Positions 5,205 to 21,155 of a DNA stretch of 54,550 bases are shown one piece after another (the first letter of the stretch is position 1; each line of letters opens with the position of its first letter). Source of the stretch: Actinomycetota bacterium (GTDB lineage: Bacteria > Actinomycetota > Rubrobacteria > Rubrobacterales > Rubrobacteraceae); contig CADDYV010000020.1 in the NCBI GenBank assembly GCA_902810695.1, positions 1-54,550 on the forward strand, in the 5' to 3' direction. A program made the translations under genes and the position numbers. The notes beneath the pieces were generated by a model, which did not search any database, was not told the DNA's origin, and saw nothing but the letters and a program-made list of their open reading frames with translations.

Positions 5205-5698
5205 TGCCCAGAGCATTTCTGAGTCTGGGGAGCAACCTGGGAAATCGGCTCGAATACCTGCGTGCCGCGGTCAAGGCTCTGAGGGGAAGTCCGCAGATCG
5301 AGGTGCTCGCCGTATCCAGAATTTACGAGACCGAGCCGGTCGAAGTTGGAGAGAGCCAACCAGAGTATCTGAACTGCGCCATCGAAGTTCGGTGTGAGAT
5401 GCCAGCGGTCGAGCTGATGCGTTTCTGCCAAGGAGTCGAGTCGGCTCTGGGGCGCGAGCGCAAAGGCGAGAGGGCGCCGCGTACCCTGGACATAGACCTG
5501 CTGGTATTCGGAAGAGAAGTCTTGGATACGCTGGATCTGGTAGTGCCGCATCCGGGCGTAACGCGGGCCTTCAACCTGAGAGGTTTGGCGGATATCGACC
5601 CGGATCTGTATATTCCGGGATACGGCGTTGTGAGAGAGTTGCTCGCGAAGGCCGAGCTGAGCGGGATAAGAGAGCTGGAGGGGGAAGAACTTTGCTGA
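5204..5698 (+). CDS. folK: 2-amino-4-hydroxy-6-hydroxymethyldihydropteridine diphosphokinase
   Basis: HPPK pyrophosphorylates hydroxymethyl-dihydropterin, the step before FolP. The 164-residue protein begins MPRAFLSLGSNLGNR, matching the family N-terminus, and contains RTLDIDLLVFG and VPHPGVTRAFNLRGLADI, which hold the ATP and Mg ligands. ATG 5204 shares its A with the last base of the folP stop; an in-frame TTG at 5201 would add one Met. The last seven bases overlap coaX. Position and overlap indicate one folate and CoA transcript unit. Confidence 0.94.
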   Translation: MPRAFLSLGSNLGNRLEYLRAAVKALRGSPQIEVLAVSRIYETEPVEVGESQPEYLNCAIEVRCEMPAVELMRFCQGVESALGRERKGERAPRTLDIDLLVFGREVLDTLDLVVPHPGVTRAFNLRGLADIDPDLYIPGYGVVRELLAKAELSGIRELEGEELC

Positions 5699-6471
5699 TG
5701 GCCGCCGACATCGGAAATACGCAGACGGTGCTCGGAATCTTCGAGGCCGAAGAGTTGAAGGCCCGCTGGCGGATAGCGACCGAGTCATACCGCACCGCGG
5801 ATGAGGTCGGGGCAAGCTGCGCGGCGCTGCTGGGATTGCGCGGGATGAGCTTCGAGAACGTAACGGCTCTGATCGTTTCCAGCGACGTCCCGCCGCTCAT
5901 CCGCTCCTACAGAAACTTCGCGGATTACCTTCTCGGTGTCCCATTCTACTTTGTCAGTCCGGAGATGAAGACCGGGCTCCAAAACCGCTACGACGATCCT
6001 TCCCAGGTCGGCTCGGACAGGATCGTCAACTCCGTGGCGGCGAGCCGCTTCTACGGGTTACCTGCGATAATCGTTGACTTCGGTACGGCTACGACGGTCG
6101 AGGCCGTGGACGCGGACGCGAACTACAAAGGCGGGGCGCTGATGCCCGGCGTCTACATCTCCCTGGACGCCCTCGCCAGCCGGGCGGCCAAGCTCGCCAA
6201 CGTAGACCTGGAAGAGCGAGTGCCGAAGGCCATCGCCACCAACACCTCAGATTCCATCCGCAGCGGGTTCATCTACGGCTATGCCGGAGCGGTGGACTCC
6301 CTGATCCGGCGCTTCAAAGAGGAGATGGGAACACAGCGGGAGGGTTTCCAGGTTATCGCTACGGGCGGGCCTGCTCCGGCGATCGTCCCTCACTGCCGCG
6401 AGATCCAGGTTCTGGACTCCGACCTGACGCTGAAAGGTCTTCTCGCTCTCTACGAGATGAACGCCGTTTGA
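5692..6471 (+). CDS. coaX: Type III pantothenate kinase
   Basis: Phosphorylates pantothenate in the first committed step of CoA synthesis. The 259-residue ASKHA-fold protein starts MLMAADIGNTQTVLGIF (phosphate-1 motif with DIGNT), then GSDRIVNSVAA, VDFGTATTVEAV (phosphate-2 motif) and a late ATGGPAPAIV adenosine motif. TTG 5692 is chosen because GGAGGGG lies about seven bases upstream and the resulting N-terminus aligns with the family; ATG 5698 would drop two residues. It overlaps folK. Some annotations call this family Baf, but the kinase motifs are intact. Confidence 0.95.
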   Translation: MLMAADIGNTQTVLGIFEAEELKARWRIATESYRTADEVGASCAALLGLRGMSFENVTALIVSSDVPPLIRSYRNFADYLLGVPFYFVSPEMKTGLQNRYDDPSQVGSDRIVNSVAASRFYGLPAIIVDFGTATTVEAVDADANYKGGALMPGVYISLDALASRAAKLANVDLEERVPKAIATNTSDSIRSGFIYGYAGAVDSLIRRFKEEMGTQREGFQVIATGGPAPAIVPHCREIQVLDSDLTLKGLLALYEMNAV

Positions 6472-6498: not shown

Positions 6499-6527
6499 TT
6501 GAAACTTTTGAATACCGCTCTTATACT
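6499..6527 (+). promoter_or_regulatory. Promoter of greA, leaderless or nearly so
   Basis: TTGAAA (6499-6504), a 17-base spacer and TATACT (6522-6527) form a near-consensus housekeeping promoter. The -10 box ends ten bases before the greA ATG (6538), so transcription should begin at about 6534-6538, leaving 0-4 bases of leader and no room for a Shine-Dalgarno. Confidence 0.7.
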
Positions 6528-6537
6528 CTTCCAGCTT

Positions 6538-7023
6538 ATGAGCGAGAAGAACCAGGAGCTGCTGACTCCTGAGGGGTACAGGAAGCTCCAAGAGGAACTT
6601 GCATATTTGACCGAGACCCGGCGGAAGGAAGTTGCCGACCGTATTCGCCAGGCGCGGGAATTTGGCGACATCTCCGAGAACTCGGAGTACGATGATGCCA
6701 AGAACGAGCAGGGGCTGCTGGAACGCAGGATCAGCGAAATCCAGCGCCGCCTGCGTAGCGCGAAGGTGGTCGAACCTTCTAATGCGAACAAGGACTCGGT
6801 GGACCTGGGCAGCCGCGTTACCCTGCGGGTCGTAGGCGAGGGCAAGGAGCGTACCTTCGAGATCGTAGGGGCCAACGAGTCAGATCCCACGAGCGGGAAG
6901 CTCTCGCACTCCTCACCCGTGGGCCGGGCGGTGCTCAAGCGCCGCGTCGGAGACAAGGTAGTGGTTAGCACTCCCAGAGGCGCCACGGAGTACGAGATCG
7001 TCAACGTCGAGGTTGCGAGCTAA
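6538..7023 (+). CDS. greA: Transcription elongation factor GreA
   Basis: Binds the RNA polymerase secondary channel and stimulates cleavage of backtracked transcripts. The 161 residues show the N-terminal coiled coil (about 10-75) with the tip motif REFGDISENSEYDDAKNEQ, whose acidic residues coordinate catalytic Mg, and a C-terminal FKBP-like domain ending SPVGRAVLKRRVGDKVVV. I use ATG 6538 (MSEKNQELLTPEGY), which matches the family length. An in-frame TTG at 6499 would add 13 hydrophobic residues, but it coincides with the promoter -35 box, so it is very unlikely to be translated. Confidence 0.96.
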   Translation: MSEKNQELLTPEGYRKLQEELAYLTETRRKEVADRIRQAREFGDISENSEYDDAKNEQGLLERRISEIQRRLRSAKVVEPSNANKDSVDLGSRVTLRVVGEGKERTFEIVGANESDPTSGKLSHSSPVGRAVLKRRVGDKVVVSTPRGATEYEIVNVEVAS

Positions 7024-7060: not shown

Positions 7061-7090
7061 ATGGCTAACCCGATCGGGAGCGGCAAGTGA
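7061..7090 (+). CDS. Putative leaderless 9-codon upstream ORF (MANPIGSGK)
   Basis: ATG 7061 opens a 9-codon frame reading MANPIGSGK and stopping at TGA 7088-7090. Its stop overlaps the lysS start as GTGA, the usual layout for translational coupling. Its last sense codon is AAG (Lys), directly before a lysyl-tRNA synthetase gene. The -10 box five bases upstream would make it leaderless. It is not in frame with lysS. A role in lysine or charging-dependent control is inference; with only one Lys codon it could equally be a chance frame. Confidence 0.35.
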   Translation: MANPIGSGK

Positions 7091-8550
7091 GCGAAACGCG
7101 CATCTCCATACCCGGCTGGGCCGAGAGGATGGCGGATCGCCTGGGTGAGGGACCGCATGTGGTCGTTACCGGCATCAGCCCCTCCGGCAACATCCACAAC
7201 CTGCGCGAGGTGCTCGTCGCCGAGGCGGTGGCGAACGCGCTCAAGGAGCGGGGCGCGGGGGTACGCTTCATCTTCCACGCGGACACCATAGACCCGCTGC
7301 GCAAGATCGCACCCGGCATCCCGGAGAGCTTCGAGAAGTACATGGGACGAAGCCTCTCTCACATCCCGGACCCGGAAGGTTGCCACGCATCCTACGCCGA
7401 GCACTTCCTCTCTCCGTTCGAGGAAGCCCTCGAAGAGATGGAGATGGACATCGAGGTGCTGCGCTCGCACGAGATCTACGAGAGCGGCGTCTACACGGAT
7501 GTAACCTGCGAGGCCATCGAGCACACAGACGAGTTGCGAAAGATTATGCAGGAAGTAACGGGCCGGAAAATGCCGGAAGGCTGGTCGCCGTACCTGCCGC
7601 GTGCTTCGTCGGGAGACCTCACCGGAAACCGCGTCCTGGAGCACCTGCCGGAGGAGAGCAAGGTCATCTTCGTGGACCGCGACGGCAACGAAGGTGTCGC
7701 CGACTACTCAAAGGGCGAGGGCAAGCTCGGCTGGCGGACGGAGCTTGCGGCGCGGTGGAAGGCTCTGGGAGTTACCTTCGAGCCGTTCGGCAAGGATCAC
7801 ACCAGCCGCGGCGGTTCGACCGATACCGCGGACCGGATGTCCCGCGAGGTTTTCCACTACCCGGTTCCGGGTCGCTACGAGTACGAGTGGATCTCCATAA
7901 AAGGCAAGGGTCCCATGAGCAGCTCAAAAGGCGTAGTCCTCTTGCCTAAAGACCTGTTGAAGATCATGCCCCCCGGCGCCCTCAGAAAGATGATGCTCGG
8001 ACGTGACCCGGCCCGTGCTCTGGACCTCGACCTCGAAGGCGGCTTTCCACGCTTCATGGACGAGTACCGGGCTGAGGTGGGAGAGGAATATGTGCCCTTC
8101 ACCCACCTCGTTACTGTCGCCCAGACCGTCGGCGGCGATACAGAAGCCGCGGCACAGATGCTCCGGCGGGGCGGCTACGAAAAAGCCGCCGCAGACCAGG
8201 GGAAACTCGCCCGCGACCTGTCATACGCCCTCAACTGGGCGAAGGAGTGGGCTCCCGAGTCGCTGCGGTTCAGAATCCTGAGCGAGGAGGAGGCCAAAGA
8301 AGCGGCGCAGGGGCTTAGCGCGGATCAGAGAAGGTACCTTGCTGCGGTTTCCGGGAAGTTGAAAGCGGGTATGGACGGTGATGAGGTACAAAACCTGCTG
8401 TACTCCACGGCTGGCGAGTGCGGGCTCAAGCCCAAGAAGGCTTTTGCGGCGCTCTACTCGGTTCTGCTGGGTAAGAAGAGTGGCCCCAAAGCCGGACCGT
8501 TTGTCGCCGGTCTTCCTACCGAAGTCGTGCGGCAGAGGCTCTCGGTGTAA
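7087..8550 (+). CDS. lysS: Class I lysyl-tRNA synthetase (archaeal type)
   Basis: Charges tRNA-Lys using a class I Rossmann fold, unrelated to the class II enzyme most bacteria use. The 487 residues show TGISPSGNIHNLREVL at about 28-43, HADTIDPLRKIAPGIP, SYAEHFLSPFEE, EPFGKDHTSRGGS and the KMSKS equivalent MSSSKG at 277-282, all in the order seen in class I LysRS. The HIGH region lacks two residues: family members read SGPIHxGNLRE, this one SGNIHNLRE, so the conserved x-Gly after His37 is gone. GTG 7087 is preceded by GGGAG at a 6-base spacing. It sits in the slot where Bacillus carries class II lysS. Full activity is not certain given the motif change. Confidence 0.88.
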   Translation: MSETRISIPGWAERMADRLGEGPHVVVTGISPSGNIHNLREVLVAEAVANALKERGAGVRFIFHADTIDPLRKIAPGIPESFEKYMGRSLSHIPDPEGCHASYAEHFLSPFEEALEEMEMDIEVLRSHEIYESGVYTDVTCEAIEHTDELRKIMQEVTGRKMPEGWSPYLPRASSGDLTGNRVLEHLPEESKVIFVDRDGNEGVADYSKGEGKLGWRTELAARWKALGVTFEPFGKDHTSRGGSTDTADRMSREVFHYPVPGRYEYEWISIKGKGPMSSSKGVVLLPKDLLKIMPPGALRKMMLGRDPARALDLDLEGGFPRFMDEYRAEVGEEYVPFTHLVTVAQTVGGDTEAAAQMLRRGGYEKAAADQGKLARDLSYALNWAKEWAPESLRFRILSEEEAKEAAQGLSADQRRYLAAVSGKLKAGMDGDEVQNLLYSTAGECGLKPKKAFAALYSVLLGKKSGPKAGPFVAGLPTEVVRQRLSV

Positions 8551-8852: not shown

Positions 8853-11354
8853 ATGTTTGAACGGTTTACCGAGAGAGCCCGCAAGGTCGTTGTCCTGGCT
8901 CAGGAAGAAGCGCGGCATTTCAATCACAACTACATCGGAACCGAGCATCTGCTGCTTGGCCTTCTGCGCGAGGATGAGGGTGTTGCTGCCAAGGCCCTGA
9001 CTTCGCTGAACGTCACGCTCGATGATGTCCGCGATCAGGTCGAGAGCATCGTCGGTTACGGCGAGGAGAACACGGGTGGGCAGGCGCCCTTCACCCCGCG
9101 TTCGAAGAAGGTTTTGGAGCTCGCCTTGAGAGAGGCGTTGCAGCTCGGGCACAACTACATCGGAACCGAGCACATCCTGCTCGGGCTGGTAAGGGAGTCC
9201 GAGGGCGTCGCCGCGAGGGTGCTCGCCAACCTGGATGTTGACTCGGACAGGGTGCGCCGGAAGGTCGTCGAACTTCTCGGCGGCGGAAGGGCGCAGAGAG
9301 GTCGCGGCGGAGAAGCCGCCGGACGCGGCGGTGCCGAGGCGCGCAGGCCCAAGACCCGCCAGCTCGACCAGTACGGCAGAAACCTCACCGCTCTCGCCGA
9401 GGAAGACAAGCTCGACCCGGTGGTCGGACGCACCCAGGAGATCGAGCGGATCATGCAGATCCTGGTGAGGCGCACCAAGAACAACCCCGTGATCATCGGC
9501 GAGCCGGGCGTCGGCAAGACGGCCATCGTCGAGGGGCTGGCGACGGAGATCGCCGAGGGGCGCGTCCCGGAGCTTCTGGCAAATAAAGAGGTCTACACGC
9601 TGGACCTCGGCGCGCTGGTCGCGGGCTCCAAGTACCGCGGCGAATTCGAGGAACGCCTCAAGAAGATAATGAAGGAGATCACCGACCACGGCGACATCAT
9701 CCTGTTCATAGACGAGATCCACAACCTCGTCGGAGCAGGTGCCGCCGAGGGCGCGATAGACGCCGCTTCGATCCTCAAGCCGGCGCTCGCGCGCGGAGAG
9801 TTGCAGGTGATCGGCGCGACCACCATTGATGAGTACCGCAAGTACGTGGAGAAGGACAAGGCCCTGGAGCGCCGGTTCCAGACCATCCAGGTCGGCGAGC
9901 CGACGGTCGAGGAGACGGAGCTCATCCTCAAGGGTCTGCGCGACAAGTACGAGGCGCACCACAAGATCCAGATAACCGACGAGGCGCTCAAGGCGGCCTC
10001 GCAGCTCGGCGACCGCTACATCTCCGATCGCTTCCTGCCGGACAAGGCCATAGACTTGGTGGACGAGGCGGCCTCGAAGATGCGGATCAAAACTATGTCG
10101 CAGCCGCCTTACTACAAGGAAGTTGACGACGAGCTGGCCGAGGTGCGCTCTCAGAAAGAAGCCGCCATTGATGGCCAGGAGTACGAGAAGGCCGCTCGCC
10201 TGAGAGACAATGAGCGCGAGCTGACGCTCCGCCGTCGCGAGCTCGAGCGGCAATGGCGCGAGGGAGAAGGCGAGAAGCGCGTCTCCATCGGGGAGAACGA
10301 GATCGCGGAGATCGTCTCCATGTGGACCGGCATCCCGGTCAAGAAACTGACCGAGGAGGAGTCCGAGCGTCTCCTGCACATGGAAGAGGCGCTGCACGGG
10401 CGCGTCGTGGGGCAAAACGAGGCCATCAAGGCCGTCAGTCGCTCCATCCGGCGCACGATGGCGGGTATCAAAGACCCGAACCGTCCGAGCGGATCGTTCG
10501 TGTTCCTCGGTCCCACCGGGGTCGGAAAGACCGAGCTTGCCCGCACGCTCGCCGAGTACATGTTCGGTGATCAGAACGCCATGATCCGGCTGGATATGTC
10601 CGAGTACATGGAGCGGCACACGGTCAGCAGGCTCGTCGGCTCGCCCCCCGGATACGTCGGCTACGACGAGGGTGGCCAGCTCACCGAGCAGGTCCGCCGG
10701 AAGCCCTACAGCGTGGTGCTCTTCGACGAGATCGAGAAGGCCCACCCGGATGTGTTCAACATCCTGCTCCAGATCCTGGAGGACGGTCAGCTTACCGACG
10801 CCCAGGGCCGACAGGTGAACTTCAAGAACGTCGTCCTGATCATGACTTCCAACGTCGGGGCGCAGACGATCAACAAAACCAGGTCGCTGGGCTTCGGCGG
10901 CAACGAGGAAGGTATCTCCTACAAGGAGATGAAGTCGCGGGTTACGACCGAACTCAGGAAGATCTTCCGTCCCGAGCTTCTGAACAGGATCGACGAGACC
11001 ATCGTCTTCCACAAGCTGGAGCGCGAGGACGTGCGCCAGATCATCGAGATCCAGATAAAGCGCCTGCGTCAGCAGCTTCTTGAGCGCGATGTAACCATCG
11101 AGTTCACCACCGAGGCGCTCGACAAGCTCTCGGAGGCGGGCTACGACCCGGCATTCGGCGCCCGACCCTTAAAGCGCGTCCTGCAGCGCATGGTCGAGGA
11201 CCCGATGAGCGAGATGATCCTGCGCGGCGAGGTCCCGAACGGCTCGAAGATCGTGATCGAGGCTAACGACATCTCCACCGACGATGCGACCGATGATCAG
11301 TCCATCGTGGACTTCAAGGTCATCCAGCCCAAGGAAGTCGTGAAAGCCGAGTAG
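8853..11354 (+). CDS. clpC: ATP-dependent Clp protease ATPase subunit ClpC
   Basis: HSP100 unfoldase that feeds substrates to ClpP. The 833 residues contain two Clp N-terminal repeats (about 1-145, each with [13 protein letters not shown]-like text), D1 with Walker A GEPGVGKT near 216, a UVR-type coiled middle region (about 420-460), D2 with Walker A GPTGVGKT near 553 and a C-terminal ClpB_D2-small domain. The N-repeats plus UVR segment identify ClpC rather than ClpB or ClpA. A Gly/Arg/Ala-rich linker (about 150-175) joins N domain and D1. The Bacillus partners ctsR, mcsA and mcsB are absent upstream, and control appears ClgR-like instead. A strong terminator follows. Confidence 0.97.
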
Positions 11355-19143: not shown

Positions 19144-19215
19144 GCCTGGGTAGCTCAGCGGTAGAGCAGCCGCCTTGTAAGCGGCAGGTCGGGGGTTCGA
19201 ATCCCTTCCCAGGCT
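19144..19215 (+). tRNA. tRNA-Thr (anticodon UGU)
   Basis: A 72-base cloverleaf. Acceptor GCCTGGG pairs with CCCAGGC (19208-19214), the D-arm has GCTCAGCGGTAGAGC, the anticodon stem GCCGC/GCGGC encloses CTTGTAA (anticodon TGT), and the T-loop is TTCGAAT. The discriminator is T and CCA is not encoded. It reads ACA and related Thr codons. Confidence 0.95.
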
Positions 19216-19236
19216 CTCTGGTCCGGGCGACTTTTG

Positions 19237-19264
19237 TTGAAAAGTGCGCGGCTTTTGCTACCAT
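19237..19264 (+). promoter_or_regulatory. Promoter between tRNA-Thr and tRNA-Tyr
   Basis: TTGAAA (19237-19242), a 16-base spacer and TACCAT (19259-19264) predict a transcript start near 19271, 23 bases before tRNA-Tyr. It may give the Tyr-Thr-Met-tuf part independent transcription. Confidence 0.45.
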
Positions 19265-19293
19265 AGCGGGGCGCTTCAGCAGGAAGCGTAGCC

Positions 19294-19376
19294 GGGGGTG
19301 TGCCCGAGCGGCCAAAGGGAGCAGACTGTAAATCTGCCGGCTATTGCCTACGGAGGTTCGAATCCTCCCGCCCCCA
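19294..19376 (+). tRNA. tRNA-Tyr (anticodon GUA)
   Basis: An 83-base tRNA with a long variable arm, as in other class II tRNAs. Acceptor GGGGGTG pairs with CGCCCCC with one G-U pair; the anticodon stem CAGA/TCTG encloses the loop with CTGTAAA (anticodon GTA). The T-arm has GGTTCGAATCC. Discriminator A, no encoded CCA. Confidence 0.95.
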
Positions 19377-19388
19377 TGAACAAAGCGT

Positions 19389-19461
<73 letters not shown>

Positions 19462-19506
19462 CTTGGAGACCAGTGGAGAGGCTGCTGGCCCACAACACAT
19501 AGACAC

Positions 19507-19580
19507 GGCGGTGTAGCTCAGTTGGTTAGAGCAGCGGAATCATAATCCGCGTGTCGCAGGTTCGAGTCCTGCCACCGCTA
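19507..19580 (+). tRNA. tRNA-Met (anticodon CAU), elongator type likely
   Basis: A 74-base cloverleaf. Acceptor GGCGGTG pairs with CACCGCT, giving a G-U first pair; anticodon stem GCGGA/TCCGC encloses ATCATAA (anticodon CAT). The position beside tRNA-Thr and rpmG matches elongator tRNA-Met in other actinobacteria. A TilS-modified tRNA-Ile (CAU) cannot be ruled out from the anticodon alone. The three G-C pairs typical of initiator anticodon stems are lacking. Confidence 0.88.
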
Positions 19581-19620
19581 CTTTCGGTTTTCCGGTGGAA
19601 GCGAGAAAGGAATCCTGAGA

Positions 19621-20822
19621 ATGGGCAAGGCGAGATTTGAGAGGACCAAGCCACACATAAACATCGGCACCATAGGGCATGTGGATCACGGCAAGACCAC
19701 CCTCACCGCTGCCATTACCAAGGTGCTGCACAAGAGAGTGCCCAACGACAGCGCCAACAAAGTGGTGGCCTTCGAGCAGATTGACAACGCTCCCGAGGAG
19801 AAGCAGAGAGGGATAACAATAGCCACCTCTCACCAGGAGTACGCTACCGAAAAACGCCATTATGCGCATGTGGACTGCCCTGGGCATGCTGACTACGTAA
19901 AGAACATGATTACCGGGGCTGCCCAGATGGATGGGGCCATTCTGGTGGTATCTGCAGCAGATGGACCCATGCCCCAGACCAGAGAGCACATCCTGCTAGC
20001 CAGGCAGGTAGGGGTACCTTCCATAGTTGTGTTTTTGAACAAGGCGGACATGGTAGATGATGCGGAGCTACTTGAGCTGGTAGAGATGGAAGTGAGAGAG
20101 CTACTTACCGAGTATGACTTCCCAGGCGATGAGGTACCGGTAATAGTAGGCTCTGCCCTAAGAGCCTTAGAAGGCGATGAAGGGGAGTACGGCGAAGAGG
20201 CGATCATGAAGCTCATGGACGCCGTAGATGAGTATGTCCCAGAGCCAAAAAGAGACACCGAGAAGCCCTTCCTACTGGCCATAGAGGATGTCTTCTCCAT
20301 AACCGGGCGAGGAACGGTAGCCACAGGGCGGGTAGAGCAGGGGATATTGCGTCTCAACGAAGAAGTAGAGATAGTAGGGATAAGGCCCACCCGAAAGACG
20401 GTAGTAACGGGCATAGAGATGTTCAACAAGAGTATGGATGAGGCGCAGGCAGGAGACAATGTAGGAGTTCTCTTAAGAGGGATAAGAAGAGATGAGATAG
20501 AGCGGGGGCAGGTTTTGGCCAAGCCTGGGAGCATAACCCCCCACACCCGCTTCAAAGCGGAGGTATATGTCCTCTCCAAAGAAGAGGGGGGACGTCACAC
20601 CCCGTTTTTCAGCAACTACCGTCCGCAGTTCTACTTCCGCACCACTGATGTAACGGGGGAGATCACCCTCGAAGAAGGAGTAGAGATGGTGATGCCGGGG
20701 GACAACACGGTAATGGAAGCGAAGTTGATCTCACCTATAGCGATGGATGAGGGCTTAAACTTTGCCATAAGGGAAGGTGGCCGCACTGTTGGTGCTGGTG
20801 TGGTTACGGAAATCATAGAGTA
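19621..20822 (+). repeat. Long direct repeat, tuf copy 1 (partner 34802-36003)
   Basis: A 1202-base tract appears identical to 34802-36003, in the same orientation 15.2 kb away. Identity begins at the A of ATG (preceding base A here, G there) and ends within the stop codon (TAG versus TAA). Such sharp limits indicate recent gene conversion or strong homogenisation confined to the coding region. Confidence 0.93.
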
Positions 20823-20823
20823 G
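19621..20823 (+). CDS. tuf: Elongation factor Tu, copy 1
   Basis: GTPase that brings aminoacyl-tRNA to the ribosome. The 400 residues show G1 GHVDHGKT, G3 DCPGHADY, G4 NKAD and the three EF-Tu domains; ATG 19621 follows AAAGGA. It lies after four tRNA genes and before rpmG, tRNA-Trp and secE, the position of tufB in enterobacteria. By my line-by-line comparison it is identical to the second tuf from the ATG to the second base of the stop (TAG here, TAA there), while the flanks differ. Codons AGA, GTA, ATA and CTA are common, unlike neighbouring genes. Confidence 0.98.
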
Positions 20824-20838
20824 GCTAACTTATGTGTG

Positions 20839-20867
20839 GGGGCGGGATCTCACCCGCCCCTCTTTAT
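20839..20867 (+). terminator. Terminator after tuf copy 1
   Basis: GGGGCGGG (20839-20846) pairs perfectly with CCCGCCCC (20853-20860) around a 6-base loop, followed by TCTTTAT. The T tract is imperfect, so some read-through into rpmG is likely; rpmG has no other evident promoter nearby. Confidence 0.75.
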
Positions 20868-20883
20868 GGATTGAAGGAGAAGT

Positions 20884-21033
20884 ATGAGGCAGTTGGTTAC
20901 GCTGGCTTGCGAGGAGTGCAGGCGCAGGAATTATCACAGCCGCAAGAACCGGCGGAATACCCCGGACCGCATCCAGCTCAAGAAATACTGTCCGTGGTGT
21001 CGGCACCATACGACACACCGGGAGACCAGGTAG
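20884..21033 (+). CDS. rpmG: 50S ribosomal protein L33 (zinc type)
   Basis: A 49-residue protein, [12 protein letters not shown] then a basic stretch and [17 protein letters not shown]. Two CxxC pairs (Cys9/Cys12 and Cys36/Cys39) form the zinc ribbon of C+ L33. ATG 20884 has AAGGAG six bases upstream. It lies between tuf and tRNA-Trp, ahead of secE-nusG, as L33 does in Bacillus and many actinobacteria. Confidence 0.96.
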
Positions 21034-21053
21034 TAAGATAATGAGCATAGCAG

Positions 21054-21126
21054 AGGGCAGTAGCTCAGTTGGTAGAGCAGCGGTCTCCAAAACCGCAGGT
21101 CGGGGGTTCGAGTCCCTCCTGCCCTG
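21054..21126 (+). tRNA. tRNA-Trp (anticodon CCA)
   Basis: A 73-base cloverleaf. Acceptor AGGGCAG pairs with CTGCCCT, anticodon stem GCGGT/ACCGC encloses CTCCAAA (anticodon CCA), and the T-loop is TTCGAGT. Discriminator G as usual for Trp; no encoded CCA. It lies between rpmG and secE. Confidence 0.96.
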
Positions 21127-21155
21127 CTTGGTGTGTAGGATCTAGCGAGGGAACA

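Follow-up and report, generated by a model that had tools for sequence, protein, structure and literature searches.

The window analysed here, the whole stretch of 54,550 nucleotides, encodes a class I lysyl-tRNA synthetase (LysRS1) in which the HIGH motif is two residues short. With a probability of about 0.66, this protein is a functional LysRS1 and the only LysRS of its cell, with a remodelled ATP site in which HIGH is re-registered so that N-I-H-N stands for H-x-G-N, together with corresponding changes on the facing wall of the site. Class I synthetases are defined by two signatures, of which HIGH is one, and the Gly of HIGH is regarded as necessary for adenine. The fact that Rubrobacter tropicus and some of its Rubrobacter relatives live on such a gapped enzyme as their sole LysRS suggests that a highly conserved catalytic motif can be rebuilt.

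The synthetase and its genomic setting

The features of the gene and its neighbourhood were as follows.
5692 to 6471, plus strand: coaX (type III pantothenate kinase), a neighbour in the conserved slot, from the ORF list
6499 to 7023, plus strand: greA, the upstream neighbour in the conserved slot, from the ORF list, found beside class II lysS in relatives of the phylum
7087 to 8550, plus strand: class I lysyl-tRNA synthetase (LysRS1, lysK-type), above the cut-offs of TIGR00467 and PF01921
7183 to 7209, plus strand: shortened HIGH region SGNIHNLRE (residues 33 to 41), as seen against the aligned LysRS1 of 21 canonical Rubrobacteraceae genomes and of other organisms
7915 to 7932, plus strand: KMSKS-type signature MSSSKG (residues 277 to 282), as in the canonical sisters
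8853 to 11354, plus strand: clpC, the downstream neighbour in the conserved slot, from the ORF list

The ORF used a start codon of GTG and encoded 487 aa. Profile searches gave 379 bits with TIGR00467 (cut-off 147.55) and 322.5 bits with PF01921 (cut-off 27). The predicted model had the class I fold with catalytic and C-terminal domains, and its top match in the PDB was 1irx (TM 0.77-0.79, E 4.7e-37), to our knowledge the only solved LysRS1. Alignment with 1irx spanned both domains, the C-terminal part corresponding to 404-519 of 1irx. The KMSKS-type loop of class I LysRS was present as MSSSKG, and the class I landmarks described in the earlier note, this signature included, were thereby borne out. 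By descent the protein is a LysRS1 beyond doubt. However, the HIGH signature HxGN was not found, the protein reading H--N with the Gly absent, and since this class signature is missing despite the LysRS1 descent, the protein was classed as a variant. It resembles class I LysRS (TIGR00467, PF01921, 1irx) in full-length homology, fold, KMSKS-type loop, C-terminal domain and status as the sole LysRS, whereas it differs from that class in lacking the x-Gly of HxGN and in carrying linked substitutions on the side of the KMSKS loop. It is also approximately 35 aa shorter than archaeal LysRS1. The canonical LysRS1 of Rubrobacter (R. marinus, R. taiwanensis and others) share 67-78% identity with it, come from the same genome family and are likewise the sole LysRS in each genome, but their HxGN is intact.

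The gene order in the window was folP-folK-coaX-greA-lysRS-clpC. In relatives of the phylum, class II lysS has coaX or greA before it, clpC after it, or both. The PF00152 profile, to which class II LysRS, AspRS and AsnRS all belong, matched a single gene in the genome of the window, aspS, and a search with it found no class II LysRS in any Rubrobacteraceae genome, only aspS. Nearly all of these genomes had one PF00152 gene each; it was in two pieces in 2 genomes and absent from 4 incomplete ones, and the additional copy to be expected from a class II LysRS was seen in none. As to the sensitivity of this search, PF00152 was positive in 14 of 14 controls, and TIGR00499 detected class II LysRS in 8 of 8 phylum relatives. 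Because the neighbours of the slot match those of class II lysS and the family has no class II LysRS, displacement of class II lysS in place by a class I LysRS is supported, as the earlier note had proposed from the gene order when it suggested looking for a class II gene elsewhere in the genome. Only one further family had a near homologue (G038), and there too greA lies upstream of LysRS1. LysRS1 is known to have spread laterally into bacteria, Streptomyces among them; Rubrobacter is not named in that report (PMC1475646).

The shortened motif, its distribution and the selection on it

The DNA at 7183-7209 was clean and read TCC GGC AAC ATC CAC AAC CTG CGC GAG. The missing x-Gly of HxGN maps to the junction 7197/7198; equivalently, the motif can be viewed as re-registered to N-I-H-N (residues 35 to 38). 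The LysRS1 of the window thus has SGNIH--NLRE where other LysRS1 have SGxIHxGNLRE, and the Pyrococcus LysRS1 (1irx) has SGYVHVGNFRE, two residues longer. Alignment with class I LysRS from archaea and Rubrobacter, two of the groups that the earlier note had named, showed these two extra residues in all LysRS1 read but the gapped set.

A pattern search showed the gapped motif in 9 of 39 Rubrobacteraceae genomes; counted over the 30 with a readable motif, 9 had the gap and the other 21 were long with HxG kept. The gap-bearing genomes were G000 (the window), G005, G007, G018, G020, G021, G024, G025 and G029, and the named MAGs with the gap, from the same set, were L034-L036, L040, L041 and L043. 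The contig of G005 carries only the N-terminal 183 residues of its LysRS1. G020 is R. tropicus SCSIO 52909, a pure-culture isolate with a complete genome; its second replicon has the same length as plasmid NZ_CP045120.1 of that isolate (205,328 bases) and matched it at 100% identity over the initial 6 kb, the part compared. Among the short forms, the first place of the motif was Asn, His or Ile and the fourth place Asn. His37 was invariant and the Asn nearly invariant in short and long types alike. Every other LysRS1 read kept HxG[N/H/R] (SGxxHxG[N/H/R]), that is, those of the 21 Rubrobacteraceae genomes, four named MAGs, one actinobacterium from a different family, another with a 9-Mb genome, Thermoplasmatota, haloarchaea and one Blastocatellia genome. 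When 246 genomes from the whole phylum were scanned with the pattern, no LysRS outside Rubrobacteraceae had the gap; the one extra-family match (G049) came from a genome without a LysRS1 catalytic domain. In the literature on class I LysRS, Rubrobacter LysRS and non-canonical HIGH motifs, as covered with few subscription papers, no description of a LysRS with a shorter HIGH motif was found.

The two-residue gap described in the earlier note was therefore real and recurred in 8 further genomes. That note had taken HxGN in related genomes as a sign of sequencing error. Most relatives do show HxGN, which is what an error of sequencing or assembly would lead one to expect, but the inference from it fell with nine separate gapped assemblies, a complete isolate genome among them. 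The codons flanking the gap differed synonymously among the nine genomes, so the gap is neither chance nor the error of a single assembly, and the probability left to an error is close to nil.

Exactly one LysRS1 was found in each genome with a match. In the genome of the window, the LysRS1 described here was the only PF01921 gene above the cut-off. A candidate for a second LysRS on contig C10 (PF01921, 22 bits, below the cut-off) was an IleRS. No second LysRS1 was found in the complete R. tropicus genome, and as that genome is complete, no assembly gap can hide a second LysRS there. The dN/dS of short-short pairs was 0.11-0.19 (catalytic domain 0.07-0.18) and that of long-long pairs 0.12-0.21 (catalytic domain 0.08-0.13), showing that the short LysRS1 is under purifying selection as strong as that on its canonical sisters. 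Because no other LysRS was found and the dN/dS is like that of the canonical sisters, an idle paralogue is very unlikely, and the suggestion in the earlier note of a paralogue that no longer charges tRNA-Lys did not survive these results. The loss of a near-universal catalytic Gly would suit a paralogue or a decaying gene; yet a gene that has lost tRNA-Lys charging is hardly to be reconciled with its being the sole LysRS of a complete genome, with selection equal to that on the canonical sisters and with the lack of stop codons, and such decay is highly improbable.

Descent, coupling with the KMSKS side and exchange of segments

The gap requires 5 changes on the LysRS tree, and still 5 when the motif and KMSKS columns are left out. 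On a tree of aspS, clpC and greA it requires 7 changes, 5 of them on well-supported branches. Genomes with the gap fell into five GTDB genera, of which g12 and g13 contain short and long forms side by side. With at least 5 changes on the trees, the gap does not follow descent cleanly. The lineage-specific active site supposed in the earlier note was thus upheld in substance as an altered active site but not as a lineage-specific one, given the five GTDB genera and the alternation of short and long forms in two of them. In addition, long-form relatives carried rare changes at otherwise conserved positions of the HIGH region: SVSG in L012, L014, L025 and L038 and STSG in L008, L009, L037 and L162 (Pro32 to Val or Thr), and NLLE in L021, L024 and L029 (Arg to Leu after HAGN). 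As most long forms in the clade of 19 sequences that encloses the short ones carry such changes, the HIGH stretch is unsettled throughout this clade.

The residues that went with the gap on the side of the KMSKS loop and in the strand before the HIGH loop were the following.
7168 to 7170, plus strand: Thr28, on the strand that precedes the HIGH loop; within the 19-sequence clade every short form has Thr here and every long form Ser
7894 to 7896, plus strand: residue 270 (Ser), in the strand into the KMSKS loop (strand from the predicted model); a perfect separator
7993 to 7995, plus strand: residue 303 (Met), in the helix after the KMSKS loop (helix 296-304 in the predicted model); a perfect separator

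Over 30 sequences and without exception, short forms had Ser or Tyr in column 270 and Met or Phe in column 303, and long forms had Gln, Gly or Asn in column 270 and Ile, Leu or Val in column 303. Every short form had Thr28, Ile271 and Lys281, and all or most long forms of the 19-sequence clade had other residues there; at position 281 most long sisters had Arg, and Thr28 was also found in long forms outside that clade. Among 3000 random label sets matched for size and number of tree changes, none had two perfect columns and 5 had one. A tree of aa 245-325 alone (the KMSKS region) joined all short forms with an SH-aLRT of 86, and trees of aa 60-240 and aa 330-487 did not join them. An independent-pairs test had 3-5 pairs only, too few for reaching 0.05. 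The gap and the residues on the KMSKS side thus come as a package. This coupling, however, rests on about five changes, and an old recombination could join both halves in the absence of a structural need. As a separate observation, EWIS and EWNY alternated in short forms just before the KMSKS loop (window 7891-7896; L006, L013 and L015), and this two-codon switch was seen in two genera, g8 and g12.

The union of all short forms on the KMSKS-region tree would be in keeping with a single old deletion in which no recombination took part, the other trees being wrong and the short forms making up one clade. Against such an origin, an AU test on the gene with motif and KMSKS columns left out rejected one clade of short forms (p 1e-45), and the aspS, clpC and greA tree with its 7 changes, 5 of them well supported, speaks likewise; a single deletion is accordingly a very weak candidate.

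Recombination within this essential synthetase gene was seen in a long form of genus g12 (G031; L025). Its flanks and C-terminal half were nearest to the short forms G020 and G029, but at approximately 600-950 bp of the gene it had 94-96% identity to the long form G011 and 77-86% to G020 and G029. Overall, the LysRS gene of G031 has a mosaic stretch from approximately 450 to 1200 bp from the start, the centre of which is nearest to G011. Informative sites showed the same mosaic for G031 and G027 (0 of 5000 permutations). These mosaics show that active-site segments were exchanged by homologous intragenic recombination, at least within genus g12. Identity of synonymous codons near the motif was 0.59 for short-short and 0.61 for short-long comparisons. 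That the short type passed between genera recently was rejected, as short-short synonymous identity was no higher than short-long, and without such an excess the sharing between genera is old or convergent, the package in the latter case having arisen more than once.

Predicted geometry, the IleRS2 parallel and possible selection

AlphaFold models of the short enzyme and of a long sister had pLDDT values of 92.2 and 93.5, and both matched 1irx first. In the predicted long form, helix alpha1 begins at residue 38, straight after His37; in the predicted short form its first residue is 39, the counterpart of 41 in the long form and one past the Asn. The pLDDT of the HIGH loop was 84 in the short model versus 95 in the long. 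From the Asn onward, the helix sequence NLREVLVAEAV was unchanged in short forms.

In the mechanism proposed here, the loss of two residues would shorten the HIGH loop so that N-I-H-N replaces H-x-G-N ahead of helix alpha1. The Asn at the opening of the helix would stay where it is, and His37 would become the third residue of the motif and could there take on the role of the canonical first His towards the phosphates and the transition state; the missing Gly would no longer give its flat contact to adenine. The changes on the opposite wall (Thr28, Ser or Tyr270, Lys281 and Met or Phe303) may hold the new geometry, in which case short and long forms would be two matched active-site packages. 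Normal activity of the short LysRS1 is probable, judging indirectly from its dN/dS and from its being the sole LysRS of a complete genome, and the roles given to individual residues, His37 included, as well as the reason for the change, are suggested by analogy.

The analogy is with IleRS2, in which G/AxHH stands for HxGH with no loss of activity relative to canonical enzymes: HIGH has moved nearer to the KMSKS loop, and this lets the third His act in place of the first (PMC10485003). Both cases have an altered HIGH in an essential class I synthetase, an involvement of the KMSKS side and a motif gained or lost repeatedly. The third-place His would be common to both if the LysRS motif is re-registered to NIHN; the predicted models fit either register. 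The two differ in that the first and third places were substituted in IleRS2, whereas two residues were deleted in the LysRS1 of the window. Moreover, the short LysRS1 forms begin the motif with Asn, His or Ile and end it with Asn, whereas IleRS2 begins it with Gly or Ala and ends it with His.

A functional LysRS1 could also absorb the missing residues by unwinding the first turn of helix alpha1, with His37 staying first in the motif. The short-form helix in the AlphaFold model begins three positions later in register than that of the long form and its loop is less confident, both of which fit an unwound turn and tell against re-registration, as does a first place of Asn, His or Ile and not Gly or Ala as in IleRS2. 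The invariance of His37 and near-invariance of the Asn in both types also suit unwinding. However, the confidence of the model is lowest exactly at the helix start, and the unchanged NLREVLVAEAV from the Asn favours a fixed helix. Unwinding is possible but doubtful, and because the IleRS2 precedent exists, re-registration was preferred; the IleRS of the window genome, which reads GFHH, likewise has a third-place His.

Why the motif changed is a question of its own, and a selective explanation is compatible with either re-registration or unwinding. Short and long forms may be alternative alleles that selection maintains because the change protects the ATP or lysine site of LysRS against a natural inhibitor; at low cost, it would be gained or lost by recombination as exposure to that inhibitor varies. 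The patchy distribution of the gap and the swapping of active-site segments within one genus would agree with this. The IleRS of the window genome reads GFHH (G000 C10, approximately 34.7-36.9 kb, minus strand; L002, L174), which means that a class I synthetase with a third-place His is already present in the cell. The same GxHH form, of the hyper-resistant type, was found at all 24 readable IleRS sites of Rubrobacteraceae (relatives L175-L198), but as GFHH occurs in genomes with short and long LysRS1 alike, it does not track the LysRS gap. We know of no inhibitor of class I LysRS made by a soil organism, and none was found in the literature searched. In IleRS2 the G/AxHH motif raises mupirocin resistance by up to 1000-fold and has been repeatedly gained and reverted (PMC10485003), whereas resistance of LysRS1 is here proposed by analogy. 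Selection by an inhibitor is on balance unlikely. The fuller scheme of two interchangeable LysRS1 packages (long HxGN and short xIHN), swapped between species by homologous recombination under selection by a natural LysRS inhibitor, can be put forward only tentatively, at slightly better odds.

If the preferred reading of a re-registered motif is true, HIGH can be rebuilt by deletion in the sole essential enzyme of a cultured bacterium, a second and independent case beside IleRS2, and the matched short and long enzymes would be a natural experiment on the co-evolution of HIGH and KMSKS. It may also point to a natural inhibitor of class I LysRS. Annotation based on motifs will misjudge such enzymes as inactive.

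Finally, a cluster of five tRNA genes was observed at 19144-21127 of the window: Thr(tgt), Tyr, Thr(ggt), Met and Trp.
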